23,199 nucleotides of DNA. It comes from Gemmatimonadota bacterium (GTDB lineage Bacteria; Latescibacterota; UBA2968; UBA8231). This document shows positions 18,847 through 23,199 of the stretch, piece by piece (the stretch's first letter is position 1; each line of letters opens with the position of its first letter). Where the stretch lies: the NCBI GenBank assembly GCA_002712305.1, contig PATE01000051.1:27644-50842 (forward strand), written 5' to 3'. The position numbers and the translations under genes are program-made. The notes under the pieces are model-generated. The model had not been told where the DNA came from and searched no databases. It saw only the letters and a program-made list of their open reading frames with translations.

Positions 18847-18945
18847 GGGAGCGGATGGGAGCCTGGTGGCCTCCGCGGATTTCAAATCCGTTGCGGTGTC
18901 GGGAGACCGGCGCTGGGTGGGTTCGATTCCCACACGTTCCCGCCA
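18847..18945 (+). tRNA. selC: tRNA-Sec (selenocysteine, anticodon UCA)
   Basis: The 99-nt gene has the hallmarks of tRNA-Sec: an anticodon stem GCGGA/TCCGT around loop TTTCAAA with anticodon TCA, a long D arm (GGGAGCC with GGCCTCC, one mismatch), a long variable arm (GTC-GGGA-GAC core with GCG/CGC base) and a T arm GTGGG/CCCAC around TTCGATT. Seven acceptor pairs GGGAGCG/CGTTCCC are clear; the eighth pair expected in bacterial tRNA-Sec would be G-A. Discriminator G and encoded CCA finish the gene. It reads UGA as selenocysteine, so the host presumably has selenoproteins, although selA, selB and selD are not in this window. An integrase gene follows directly, so its 3' end is the probable attachment site. 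Confidence 0.95.
18921..18945 (+). other. Probable island attachment site (3' end of tRNA-Sec)
   Basis: Tyrosine integrases of the P4 type often insert at the T-arm/acceptor 3' end of selC and rebuild the gene. The integrase gene starts 164 bp downstream in the same direction, the standard layout. The partner direct repeat at the far end is not found in the rest of the window, so the exact core and the other boundary are undefined. Confidence 0.55.
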
Positions 18946-18978
18946 ATACTCATCCAGAGTCATCTGAGAAGGCTCTAT

Positions 18979-19004
18979 AACTCCTTAAGTTACAGGGGTT
19001 TTTT
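18979..19004 (+). terminator. Candidate intrinsic terminator after tRNA-Sec
   Basis: AACTCC (18979-18984) can pair with GGGGTT (18995-19000), with one G-U pair and a 10-nt loop, and is followed by a T-run through 19004. A second small stem, AGAGTC/GGCTCT (18956-18976), precedes it. Together they could end the selC transcript and insulate the integrase promoter. Confidence 0.45.
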
Positions 19005-19041
19005 CATGGAAGGTCGAACCGAGTAGATCCGAAGACATCCG

Positions 19042-19083
19042 TTGACATACCCCGCTTATCTGGGGTATCTTATTGGGGTATCT
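19042..19083 (+). promoter_or_regulatory. Integrase promoter overlapped by inverted and direct repeats
   Basis: TTGACA (19042-19047) and TATCTT (19066-19071) with an 18-nt spacer form a sigma-70 promoter upstream of the integrase GTG at 19109. ATACCCC (19047-19053) and GGGGTAT (19062-19068) form an inverted repeat over the spacer and -10, and GGGGTATCT is repeated exactly at 19062-19070 and 19075-19083. The arrangement is that of an operator where a repressor, the integrase itself or AlpA would block RNA polymerase. Confidence 0.55.
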
Positions 19084-19108
19084 GTAATTCGATTCCCAAA
19101 AGGTCACG

Positions 19109-20359
19109 GTGCCCAAGGTCAGCAGGAACAAGCTATCTGACCCAACTGTGAAGGCCGCCACATTCGACGGGCGACCCTTCAAGCTGCATGACGGCGACGG
19201 CCTGTTCCTCCACGTCAAGCGGGGCGGGAAGTACTGGCGCTTCCGCTTCTGGCTGGGTCTCAACGCCAAGGCGAAGCCGAAAGAGCGTCTCATGGCCCTG
19301 GGCGTCTACCCTGCCGTGAGTCTGAAGGAGGCCCGGAGGGCCCGCGACGATGCCCGAGCCCGGTTGGCTCAGGGCCTTGACCCCGTGGCTCACCGCCAGG
19401 AACAGAAAGCCCGCAAGAAGGTCGCCGGGGCCAATACCTTCGAGTCTGTGGCCCGCGAGTGGTGGGAGGATCTGCACCGCCACAAGGCAGCATTTGCGGA
19501 GCGCGACCTGCGCCGTCTGGAGATGTACATCTTCCCCCACATTGGCTCCGACCCTATCGTGGCGATCGATTCGCTGCGTCTGCTGAACGTCTTGCGGCGG
19601 ATCGAGCGAGCGGGCAAGACACCCACGGCCCATAAGGTGAAGGATGTGTGCTCCCAGGTCTTCAAGTACGCCATCCGCACCAATCGAGCAGATTCCAATC
19701 CGGCGACGGGTCTCGGTCTCGATACGCTCCGGCCCAAGAACACGGGGAAGCACCATCCCGCAGCCGAGACCCCCGAGCAACTGGCGCAGCTTCTTCGTGC
19801 GATCGATGGCTACGGCGGCGAGCAGACGACGATGGCGGCCCTCAAGCTATCTGCCATGCTATTCCCCCGCCCCGGAGAACTGCGGACGGCCCGGTGGGAG
19901 GAGTTTGACCTGATCGAGGGTACCTGGGATTTCAACCCATCGAAGGGCGGGCGGCCACTGCTGACCCCACTACCGACGCAGGCAGTTGACATCTTGTCCG
20001 GACTGCGCCCCGTCACGGGTCCGCAAGGCTACGTTTTTCCAGCGACCCAAGATGACAAGCCTATATCGAACGCCACGCTTGGCAATGCCCTCCGACGTGG
20101 CATCAAACGTCACGGCCTGGACTTCGACGCCGTGCCACATGGCTTCCGAGCGACAGCACGGACGCTACTCGTAGAAGCCCTGAACGAGGCCGAGGAGGTC
20201 ATCGAGCTGCAACTGACCCACACAGTGCGAGATCGTCTGGGAAGGGCATACAACAGGACAACGTTGCTCGACCAACGACGTGACATGCTGCAGCGATGGG
20301 CGGATTACCTCGACCGTCTGCGCGGAAGTGTCGTCTCCTTGGCTGAGGCAGCGGCATGA
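19109..20359 (+). CDS. int: P4-type tyrosine integrase
   Basis: A 416-residue site-specific recombinase that inserts and excises the island. The N-terminal arm-binding domain (DUF4102 type) is seen as KLSDPTVKAATFDG...KLHDGDGLFLHVK...YWRFRFW (8-48) and YPAVSLKEARRARDDARARLAQGLDP (67-92). The core-binding SAM-like domain is about 108-200. The catalytic domain has all active residues: Arg254 (FPRPGELRTARW), Lys279 (SKGGRP), His344 and Arg347 (PHGFRATARTLL), His371 (QLTHTV) and the nucleophile Tyr381 (AYNRT). The gene looks intact. GTG start with AAAAGG 5 nt upstream. Position directly after tRNA-Sec points to that gene as its target. Its stop overlaps the next start as ATGA. Confidence 0.97.
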   Translation: MPKVSRNKLSDPTVKAATFDGRPFKLHDGDGLFLHVKRGGKYWRFRFWLGLNAKAKPKERLMALGVYPAVSLKEARRARDDARARLAQGLDPVAHRQEQKARKKVAGANTFESVAREWWEDLHRHKAAFAERDLRRLEMYIFPHIGSDPIVAIDSLRLLNVLRRIERAGKTPTAHKVKDVCSQVFKYAIRTNRADSNPATGLGLDTLRPKNTGKHHPAAETPEQLAQLLRAIDGYGGEQTTMAALKLSAMLFPRPGELRTARWEEFDLIEGTWDFNPSKGGRPLLTPLPTQAVDILSGLRPVTGPQGYVFPATQDDKPISNATLGNALRRGIKRHGLDFDAVPHGFRATARTLLVEALNEAEEVIELQLTHTVRDRLGRAYNRTTLLDQRRDMLQRWADYLDRLRGSVVSLAEAAA

Positions 20360-21249
20360 CCGGAGCGCCCCTGCCCGAGAGCATCGCGAACGCTTGCATC
20401 GCCCTGGCGCAGACCAATGAACCCATCTTGTTGGTGGGCGCAGGTAGCGACCTGCTGGAGCGTGTTGCTCGCCGTATCCACGACCTGGCATCTGTGAATC
20501 GGACGTGGCCCCCTCGGTCGTATGTCGCGGAGTCCTGTCGCGGCAAGCTGCCGAACTGGGCTACTGGTACAACGCAGCGGGACATTTACGTGCAGAGCCG
20601 GTTGGAGGGCTACCTCTCGTACGTGGACACCGTCCACCTGTCAGACGTAGAATCTGTGAGCGACGAGGTGGGCAACGAGATCATGGCGAAGCTCTATAAC
20701 GTGGGGCCAGTCAGCGACTTCACGCAGAAGGAGATCATGGCGAAGCTGCATGAAGGCGGCCACATCCGGGCTCGCCTCATCTTCTCCTCGACAGTCGAGC
20801 CCGAGCAGTGGCCCGGAGGCACGCCCAAGGAAGCGCTGTTGGGTGTGCTTCGGAAGTGCAGGCGGTTCAACGTGGGAGCCGCGGTCAACGACTCGGTACC
20901 AGACCCGGCAGGGCTGACAGTCGAACAGGATGACAACGGGCGTTGGATCTTCGAGTTGAACGGCAAGCAGTCTTCCCCGGTCAGCGGGAAGGCGCACGGC
21001 TTCCGCTACCTCAAGATCCTTCTTGACTCACCTGGCAAGGAGTTTACGCCGAAGGAGTTGAGGGACCGGTTGAATCCGCGTCGGGAGCCTCCCAAGATTG
21101 CAGACTCTGACCGGGCGCGAGTGCGGAACGCGGTACATCTGGTCTTGGACCCGAAGAAGAATATCCCCTCTGACGTACGCAACCATCTGAACAGAAGCGG
21201 TCACCTCAAGATCGGGACTGTCTGCGTGTACCGGCCGGTACCCAAATAG
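20356..21249 (+). CDS. Island protein with eroded AAA+ activator-like N-terminus and winged-helix-like C-terminus
   Basis: A 297-residue protein of no family I can name with certainty. Residues 22-175 follow the outline of an NtrC-type AAA+ domain but lack catalytic residues: EPILLVGAGSDLLERVARRIH (22-42) stands where Walker A (G..G.GK) would be and has no Lys; TVHLSDVESVSDEV (92-105) stands in the Walker B place with Ser-Asp for Asp-Glu; ARLIFSST (139-146) resembles the sensor I strand without its Asn. Residues 211-295 (GFRYLKILLDSPGKEFTPKELRDRL, then a basic helix) resemble winged-helix domains attached to signalling ATPases. It starts within the integrase stop (ATGA), so it is translated with Int and may regulate integration or island genes. 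The family comparison is inference from motif reading. Confidence 0.7.
   Translation: MTGAPLPESIANACIALAQTNEPILLVGAGSDLLERVARRIHDLASVNRTWPPRSYVAESCRGKLPNWATGTTQRDIYVQSRLEGYLSYVDTVHLSDVESVSDEVGNEIMAKLYNVGPVSDFTQKEIMAKLHEGGHIRARLIFSSTVEPEQWPGGTPKEALLGVLRKCRRFNVGAAVNDSVPDPAGLTVEQDDNGRWIFELNGKQSSPVSGKAHGFRYLKILLDSPGKEFTPKELRDRLNPRREPPKIADSDRARVRNAVHLVLDPKKNIPSDVRNHLNRSGHLKIGTVCVYRPVPK
20677..20747 (+). repeat. 17-bp exact direct repeat inside the AAA-like gene
   Basis: GAGATCATGGCGAAGCT occurs at 20677-20693 and 20731-20747, exactly 54 bp apart, so EIMAKL is repeated 18 residues later in frame (EIMAKLYNVG and EIMAKLHEGG). It looks like an in-frame tandem duplication that has since diverged between the matching parts. 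Confidence 0.6.
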
Positions 21250-21284
21250 GTCCTCTCAGGCCGTCGAAACGGTACCCGCCCTGC

Positions 21285-21325
21285 CCCGACCTTCGGGTTG
21301 TTCATCCACAACAACCCATAGGAGG
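21285..21325 (+). promoter_or_regulatory. Mutually exclusive hairpins and AGGAGG before alpA
   Basis: GGGTTGTT (21295-21302) pairs perfectly with AACAACCC (21310-21317), loop 7 nt. An upstream alternative, CCCGA (21285-21289) with TCGGG (21293-21297), uses the same GGG, so only one can form. The stronger hairpin ends 2 nt before the AGGAGG (21320-21325) that serves the alpA ATG at 21332, so folding could tune translation. No T-run follows. Confidence 0.45.
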
Positions 21326-21331
21326 TCGGAT

Positions 21332-21559
21332 ATGCCCATCACTCACCCCACCCCACTTGCACCACGTCTGCTTCGCCTTCCTGCCGTTCTCGATCAAACC
21401 GGCATGCGCCGCAGTCTCCTCTATGAGGAGATGGCGAAAGGTCGATTCCCCACGCCTGTAAAGCTCTCCCAGCGCGCTATCGCCTGGCCGTCGGACGAGA
21501 TCGACGCCTGGATTGCCGCCCGCATCGAGGCCCGCGACACCGCGGAGGTGACCCCATGA
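21332..21559 (+). CDS. AlpA-family phage/island transcriptional regulator
   Basis: A 75-residue protein with the AlpA helix-turn-helix (MerR-like excisionase fold): RLLRLPAVLDQTGMRRSLLY (12-31), EEMAKGRFPTPVKLSQRAIAWPSDEIDAWIAARI (32-65), the standard order of HTH, GRFP turn, W-x-x-x-E-I-D-x-W helix. In P4-like elements AlpA activates integrase expression and so promotes excision; here it could act on the repeats at the int promoter. A strong AGGAGG lies 6 nt before the ATG. Its stop overlaps a possible next start (ATGA at 21556-21559). Confidence 0.93.
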   Translation: MPITHPTPLAPRLLRLPAVLDQTGMRRSLLYEEMAKGRFPTPVKLSQRAIAWPSDEIDAWIAARIEARDTAEVTP

Positions 21560-21930
21560 CGGTGCTCGCAGATGGCATGGATGGCCGCCGACCCGGCAGG
21601 CCCAAAAGGAGCAACAAGCGAAAGCCCAACCGACCCCGAGAAACGGGGGTCAATCGACCCCAGAATCGACGATCTCCCCATCGCCCGACCCAACACCCCC
21701 GGAGGCCATCGGACAGCAGATTCGTCCCGGCCCACGCGCACAAAGACACACATAAAAGGCAGCCTGTTACTTTCGAACCCGCCAGGGGGGCCCCGGGGGG
21801 TGTTGCCGATCTACGCACCCAAAATTGCAGGATTTCGAAACCGGCTGGTGGTGGGCTCTACTCATCTCCCTCACACAACCGAACACACACATCGTTGCCG
21901 AGACATCTTAGGGATGACTACGTGCCTTAA
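21556..21930 (+). CDS. Doubtful Arg/Pro-rich ORF after alpA
   Basis: A 124-codon frame starting in the alpA stop (ATGA), which is the only good argument for it. The product would be very basic and low in complexity in its first 75 residues (GRRPGRPKRSNKRKPNRPRE and following), then lose any pattern. The 3' part runs through the GC block at 21785-21800 and the 52-bp repeat copy at 21837-21888, which suggests that at least the end is not a conserved coding region. An overlapping frame (21572-21934) is just as long. A genuine short protein with a different end, or no gene at all, are both possible. Apart from these elements I see nothing in 21560-21991. Confidence 0.25.
   Translation: MTVLADGMDGRRPGRPKRSNKRKPNRPRETGVNRPQNRRSPHRPTQHPRRPSDSRFVPAHAHKDTHKRQPVTFEPARGAPGGVADLRTQNCRISKPAGGGLYSSPSHNRTHTSLPRHLRDDYVP
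21785..21800. other. G6-C4-G6 block
   Basis: Six G, four C and six G in a row contain nested GGGGCCCC and CCCCGGGG palindromes. The block can form a stable hairpin or a G-rich structure and is unlike its surroundings. Confidence 0.5.
21837..21888 (+). repeat. 52-bp direct repeat, copy 1 (left of membrane-protein gene)
   Basis: Begins GAAACCGGCTGGTGG and ends CAACCGAACACAC. It matches copy 2 at 22490-22541 at 48 of 52 positions, in the same orientation, 653 bp apart. Similarity stops sharply at both ends. The two copies bracket a single AT-rich gene on the opposite strand. Confidence 0.85.
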
Positions 21931-21976
21931 ATAGTTTCCTTAGCATTCCCAGGTCCGTGCCCCACCGGGCGTAGTC
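21916..21976. repeat. 7-bp inverted repeat GACTACG / CGTAGTC downstream of the membrane-protein gene
   Basis: Arms at 21916-21922 and 21970-21976 with a 47-nt interval that itself holds a small GCCC/GGGC stem (21959-21970). It lies between repeat copy 1 and the stop of the membrane-protein gene. It may be a folded 3' end of that transcript or part of a recombination site; a chance pairing is possible. Confidence 0.3.
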
Positions 21977-21991
21977 GCCAGTATATGTGAC

Positions 21992-22438
21992 CTATTTCTC
22001 CGCCTCTGTGATATCAATAGTCGCGCGGCTCTTCAATTCTCTTAGCTGTTTTCTATAGATGAAGATCGCCCTGCTAAAAATGGCGATCAGGAGAAGATTC
22101 ACAACAGATGTGATGGCCGTGGGTCCAAAGGAATCGGGAGAGCTGAAAACAGAGACCACATCAAGCCCGTCAAAGATGAGCACGAACCAGAACGCAATGG
22201 GAATGCACGCAAAATAAAAAGATGGTGCTTTTTTGAGTGCGAGTGTCCAGTAGAGCCACGTAAGATCCAAGGCAATACCTGGGATTGTCCAGTAAGTCAA
22301 TAAGGACCAATTGAGCAAGCAGCCCGCGCATCCGCTGATGGACAAAAGTGCTATGAACAATCGCAAGAAGCGTTGATTTTTTTGCGTGAGAGCAAAAAAC
22401 GCCGCTTTGTACTGCTCTCTGTTCAAGAAAAAAGCCAT
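21992..22438 (-). CDS. Small four-helix membrane protein, island cargo
   Basis: A 148-residue hydrophobic protein with about four membrane segments (near 25-43, 47-66, 73-92 and 107-126), a charged N-terminus (NREQYKAAFFALTQKNQRFLR) and a basic, then acidic C-terminal tail (YRKQLRELKSRATIDITEAEK). I recognise no family. The base composition is visibly richer in A+T than all neighbours, with codons such as TTT, AAA and AGA that the host genes avoid, so it has a separate origin. A good AGAGGG lies about 9 nt before the ATG. It is the only gene on the minus strand of the island seen here and is flanked by the 52-bp direct repeats, like a captured cassette. Role unknown; an accessory or immunity/defence function is possible but unsupported. 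Confidence 0.75.
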   Translation of the reverse strand: MAFFLNREQYKAAFFALTQKNQRFLRLFIALLSISGCAGCLLNWSLLTYWTIPGIALDLTWLYWTLALKKAPSFYFACIPIAFWFVLIFDGLDVVSVFSSPDSFGPTAITSVVNLLLIAIFSRAIFIYRKQLRELKSRATIDITEAEK

Positions 22439-22489
22439 GGATATTTCCCTCTATTCTTGGTCTAAGTCTGCTGTTGAGTTGGCATTCGT

Positions 22490-22541
22490 GAAACCGGCTG
22501 ATGGTGGGTCCTACTCGTCTCCCTCACACAACCGAACACAC
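22490..22541 (+). repeat. 52-bp direct repeat, copy 2 (right of membrane-protein gene)
   Basis: Differs from copy 1 at four positions, all transitions. It lies about 50 bp upstream of the membrane-protein start codon (which reads leftward), so in transcript terms one copy is upstream and one downstream of the gene. Confidence 0.85.
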
Positions 22542-22626
22542 GCTCCATCCTCGTAAATATCTTCGTACATAAACGTCACCACTCATAAGCCACTGCCTCG
22601 CAGTCATGAAGTCGTTCTGAGGACGA

Positions 22627-23007
22627 ATGATAGTTTCAGATGCTGACATCATCGAGGCGCTGCAGAAGTACCGGGGGATCGTTACGTCCGCCGCGAAGCA
22701 AGTGGGCATGACCCGCTCTTCCCTGAGTCGGCGCATCCATCGAACGAAGCATCTCGAAGAAGAGCTCCACGAGATCCGTGAAACGGCAGTGGACGACGCC
22801 GAGCACATGCTGTTTCAGAAGATCGAGGAAGGTCATGTCGCCTCCATCATCTTCTTCCTGAAGTGCTTTGGAAAGGATCGGGGCTATGTGGAACGTCCGG
22901 AGCGAACGAGCACACCGCCCATGGCTCAGGTCGTGATTCCCCGACGAGAATTGACCCTGGAAGAATGGAAGGCGAACAACCGCGCCTTAGAGCGTGGGGA
23001 GGATTAG
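22627..23007 (+). CDS. Small DNA-binding protein resembling phage terminase small subunit
   Basis: A 126-residue protein. The N-terminal helix-turn-helix is clear: DADIIEALQKYRGIVTSAAK (5-24), QVGMTRSSLSRRI (25-37), a Fis/terminase-type HTH. The following helices, with the pattern AEHMLFQKIEEGHVASIIFF (58-77) and LKCFGKDRGYVERPE (78-92), resemble the oligomerisation core of many phage small terminase subunits, which recognise pac/cos DNA and feed it to the large subunit. GAGGA precedes the ATG closely. No large terminase gene follows in the 190 bp left, so packaging function is not confirmed; a transcription regulator is the alternative. Confidence 0.65.
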   Translation: MIVSDADIIEALQKYRGIVTSAAKQVGMTRSSLSRRIHRTKHLEEELHEIRETAVDDAEHMLFQKIEEGHVASIIFFLKCFGKDRGYVERPERTSTPPMAQVVIPRRELTLEEWKANNRALERGED

Positions 23008-23111
23008 CGAAGGATCAGCCCTGCCTACTCCTCGCGGAACAGCCCTTCCATGAACATTGGCACCGAACGACTCCTACTCATCAGGTCGGCACGGCCATCG
23101 AGTAGGGGACA

Positions 23112-23135
23112 AATGTTCGCTGGGCAGCGAACATT
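23112..23135. repeat. Perfect 10-bp inverted repeat with 4-nt loop
   Basis: AATGTTCGCT (23112-23121) and AGCGAACATT (23126-23135) around GGGC. No T-run follows on either strand, so an operator, processing hairpin or recombinase/packaging site is more likely than a terminator. The remaining sequence from 23008 to 23199 shows no convincing gene. Confidence 0.6.
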
Positions 23136-23199
23136 CCGGCTTTGCGATGTCAGCGATAGAACCTCTGAGCCACTCGCCTCCTGCCGACATGGATTGCCC

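Follow-up and report, generated by a model that had tools for sequence, protein, structure and literature searches.

A P4-type integrase gene that directly follows the tRNA-Sec gene (selC), accompanied by alpA and by a gene resembling those for phage small terminase subunits (TerS), raises the question of whether such a locus is a phage satellite, an ordinary prophage, or a genomic island of another kind. The window, i.e., the whole stretch of DNA that was analyzed (23,199 nucleotides, G000:C72:27644-50842), presents these genes after selC in the order int, a 297-aa gene, alpA, a 148-aa minus-strand gene between 52-bp repeats, and terS (Table 1). Contig C72 ends exactly at window base 23199, and the island is cut at the end of the window because the contig stops there; the assembly (genome completeness 90.9%) contains only the left end of the island, on C72, and its right end, on C145, and lacks the middle. 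The assembled ends supply an integrase, AlpA and TerS, with no other phage parts seen in them, and long non-coding stretches surround alpA and the repeats. On balance, the island is probably a small integrated phage satellite that uses its own TerS to redirect the TerL of a helper phage.

Table 1. Features of the selC locus and of the assembled left end of the island (window positions).
Feature	Position	Strand	Evidence or remark
tRNA-Sec (selC), integration target kept whole	18847..18945	+	ARAGORN; Rfam RF01852, 66.6 bits
attL core, CCACACGTTCCCGCCA	18930..18945	+	Identical attR copy at C145:727-742 (L063), outside the window
Upstream region of int with TTGACA-like box and half-sites	19043..19083	+	Conserved ahead of the G002 integrase (69% identical)
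P4-type tyrosine integrase, 416 aa	19109..20359	+	Domain and family matches
297-aa protein, no family	20356..21249	+	4-nt overlap (ATGA) with int; placed like 'iolg' of PICMIs (PMC10803314)
AlpA regulator/excisionase, 75 aa	21332..21559	+	PF05930, E=1e-16; phrog_66, phrog_2790
52-bp direct repeat, copy 1	21837..21888	+	Flanks the 148-aa gene
148-aa putative membrane protein, cargo	21992..22438	-	About 3-4 hydrophobic stretches; G+C 46%
52-bp direct repeat, copy 2	22490..22541	+	92% identical to copy 1
Phage-type small terminase subunit (TerS), predicted, 126 aa	22627..23007	+	Profile relatives and gene context in phages

The chromosomal flank that relatives conserve led to the right end of the island. 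Genomes of the same family keep the order rplI, lipoprotein-like gene, selC, and an Ldh_2 gene lies downstream of selC in four of them (G001, G018, G020 and G021), joined by a GAPDH gene in G001 and G021; in the genome under study, the Ldh_2 and GAPDH genes are found near the start of contig C145. There, the last 16 bases of selC recur as an identical copy with chromosomal sequence after it, which provides the second att copy that the preliminary description had proposed to look for. The empty site that it had also suggested is found in G001, a genome of the same genus, of which a 20-kb stretch was compared: when the window up to 18945 is joined to C145 from position 743 onward, the composite matches the G001 selC locus at 75% identity with no interruption at the junction, and neither window 18946-19300 nor C145:1-741 has a match within that stretch. 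Taken together, this att pair and the continuous alignment of the joined flanks with an empty site show that the element is truly integrated in selC; attL lies in the window, attR on C145. No relative of the island integrase was found near selC in the loci of family relatives that were examined. The core is 16 nt long, and a longer selC 3' end (26 nt, with 3 mismatches allowed) gave no second copy; the 52-bp repeats were compared by eye with tRNA-Sec as degenerate att copies and matched too weakly. Just before int, at window 19088-19108, lies TTCGATTCCCAAAAGGTCACG, which is 81% identical to the end of the tRNA-Sec T-arm and is perhaps a relic att copy or a product of chance. Locating the missing end of a truncated island in this way, by a flank conserved among relatives, offers a direct route to closing this one.

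The genes next to selC make up a plausible integration and excision module. The integrase, of the PRK09692 type, is intact as initially described and full length, with arm-binding, central and catalytic domains, and the assignment of AlpA is likewise sustained by its Pfam match, so that the island pairs an integrase with an AlpA-type regulator in the manner of PICI-like phage satellites. Half-sites upstream of int (TACCCC/GGGGTAT/GGGGTAT) accompany the TTGACA-like box, and from their sequence these may possibly serve as promoter/operator elements or as arm sites. The start of the 297-aa gene overlaps the end of int at window 20356-20359; its product had been called AAA-like, a label to be withdrawn, since neither an ATPase nor any other family was matched in Pfam, PHROGs, NCBIfam or PADLOC. 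No homologs of this protein were found in the bacterial class, the genome contigs, IMG/VR, phages, plasmids or the PDB, and its AlphaFold model from the single sequence (pLDDT 37) is unusable. A 124-aa open reading frame at 21556-21930, which overlaps the alpA stop, is of low complexity and was not counted as a gene.

Further downstream, the minus-strand 148-aa gene stands out by its G+C content against 61% around it, and it looks as if it had been inserted, cassette-like, between the two 52-bp direct repeats. These repeats are the only two copies in the whole genome, and their core has no exact match in IMG/VR. At the opposite end of the island, on C145, positions 58-486 encode the C-terminal part of a rolling-circle transposase of the ISCR/IS91 type (Y2_Tnp, E=1.5e-7; ISCR clade Ia model, E=1e-24), which is cut by the contig start and runs into a CRISPR-like repeat. 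Two such palindromic repeats, AAGCCCCGC[G/A]CATGCGGGGATGGACCG, lie 61 bp apart at about 421-512, between the transposase fragment and attR, and look like the trailing end of a CRISPR array of type I-E; no further copies were found in the genome, and spacer and repeat have no exact match in IMG/VR.

The identification of the 126-aa protein, described initially as TerS-like, is central to the satellite reading. Direct HMM matches are modest (phrog_4044, E=5e-4; an N-terminal HTH_8 match, E=2.5e-7), and gene context in phages extends them. Relatives are encoded directly before TerL in phages ON245412 and KJ018210, the one in KJ018210 being annotated as TerS, and about 5 kb upstream of TerL in a Rhizobium phage. 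A profile built from five relatives matches 516 viral contigs in IMG/VR; in 59 of the 63 loci sampled, the next gene is TerL, its product falling within a single homologous cluster that includes the TerL proteins, and a scan of the downstream genes at the 63 loci gave matches to phrog_2 (43) and to the TerL family phrog_38 (20), among other TerL families. The closest relative, L091, aligns with the 126-aa protein over 115 aa (46% identity), with a conserved C-terminal strip (IVIPkRElTLeEW) in the aligned part; its gene is followed by TerL and then by a large gene resembling a portal gene by its size. The AlphaFold model (pLDDT 86) shows an HTH and, after it, a helical hairpin, and viral Foldseek matches of this model include named TerS proteins (E=1e-3); a PDB structure search returned nothing at E<0.001, and in a PDB comparison (VIA-align) Sf6 TerS (Z 5.4) was tied with unrelated HTH proteins, which agrees with the assignment and does not discriminate. 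This tie, together with the HTH_8 match, is what would speak for a regulator of the Fis/HTH type, belonging to a genomic island that is no satellite and taking no part in DNA packaging; such a role is highly improbable, however, as the homology extends past the HTH to the C-terminus and in nearly all relatives the gene immediately precedes that for TerL. Judged by homology and gene neighborhood, the protein belongs to a family of phage small terminases (phrog_4044/phrog_309/L091), with which it shares the HTH, the hairpin and the C-terminal strip; unlike most of the members sampled, the island gene has no TerL directly downstream. No TerS relative was found among the genome contigs scanned. 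A TerS-like gene is also found in another genome of the phylum (L089, G053:C226, 1283-1951); the short contig that bears it also encodes a DnaB helicase and replication genes and is probably a prophage.

The missing TerL bears on whether the island is an ordinary temperate prophage at selC, whose TerL, portal, capsid and tail genes would lie in the unassembled middle, more than 192 bp past terS. Genes for an integrase and AlpA-like proteins are common in prophages, terS of this family normally precedes TerL, and the called TerL start lies more than 140 nt downstream in 6 of 59 relatives; at the same time, the centre of the island is absent from both contigs. In the other 53, by contrast, TerL begins within 140 nt and would already show in the 192 nt present after the island terS, in which no frame resembles TerL. 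Moreover, no TerL was found by phrog_38 or phrog_2, two broad families, in the 91%-complete genome (phrog_2 gave matches in 11 of 14 control genomes), and terS follows directly on int, alpA and cargo with no room between them for the block of replication and lysogeny genes usually found there. The lack of TerL near terS and in the assembled genome argues against a prophage, which we regard as rather unlikely; it falls short of a decision because the island centre is missing. Alternatively, int, alpA and terS could be the leftovers of a decayed genomic island or prophage remnant that no longer moves with a phage. The long non-coding stretches, the truncated transposase with its two CRISPR-like repeats at the right end, and the seemingly inserted 148-aa gene are compatible with decay, whereas none of int, alpA and terS is truncated, terS retains the conserved C-terminal strip, and both att cores are identical; a relic thus seems less probable still than a prophage. 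Against the satellite reading itself stand the unassembled centre, with its room for TerL and structural genes, the lack of any primase or replication gene in the assembled ends, and a right end with nothing beyond CRISPR-like repeats and a broken transposase. The preliminary description had proposed a small satellite with no capsid or replication genes visible; this holds for the assembled ends, in which no structural gene and no primase or replication gene was seen (the DUF5906 primase family is absent from the assembled genome), and does not carry over to the island as a whole because its middle is unassembled.

If the island is a phage satellite, its parts suggest a course of events resting on AlpA- and Int-mediated excision and on TerS selecting the element's DNA for the helper's TerL. 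Infection by a helper would lead AlpA, perhaps with the 297-aa protein whose gene overlaps int, to turn Int towards excision; the excised element might then be amplified by its own genes from the missing part or by the helper. The island TerS would mark a pac-like site of the element and recruit the helper's TerL, and the element, packaged in helper particles, could re-integrate at selC of a new cell. The type of TerS carried by such a satellite would also point to a type of TerL and hence to the kind of helper phage. We know of no described satellites in this bacterial class, and an island closed without structural genes would add a lineage represented mainly by draft assemblies to those in which satellites carry terS.

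Enterobacterial islands at selC share with the present one a P4-type integrase directly after tRNA-Sec and an att core at the tRNA 3' end; to our knowledge, these islands are large and without packaging genes of their own, whereas terS and alpA accompany int here. The island further resembles two described groups of satellites, each in part. In Gram-negative PICIs, int and alpA are joined in some cases by terS (PMC6092414), and the likeness covers an att-flanked chromosomal island with the integrase at one end, AlpA, terS as in some members, and no structural genes seen (here in the assembled ends). The present island differs in having an int-overlapping gene before alpA, in showing no pri-rep replication gene in its assembled ends (the middle being missing), and in a host outside the Gram-negative species characterized there. 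Since satellites with int, alpA and terS are thus already a known kind, the suggestion of a new satellite family is not established. PICMIs contain int, often a gene overlapping it by ATGA, alpA and a primase, and they lie beside fis and lack terS; the overlap is a frequent rather than universal trait, and the int-overlapping gene of PICMI115 is needed for excision (PMC10803314). The order of int, an ATGA-overlapping gene of unknown function and alpA is the same here, but the island is located in selC rather than next to fis, it carries terS, and no primase is seen in its assembled ends; it is not filed as a PICMI because site and terS differ. A distinct lineage of minimal satellites, joining an excision module like that of PICMIs (int, the gene overlapping it, alpA) to TerS as the sole virion-related gene, is conceivable and for now doubtful.

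Outside this genome, the 69%-identical integrase of G002 (L087, G002:C138, 2-1078), from another genus of the same family, is preceded by the same GGGGTA half-sites; it lies directly after a PhyH gene rather than selC and is cut by the contig end. On the strength of this integrase and its shared half-sites, related elements exist in the genus of G002, at a different site.
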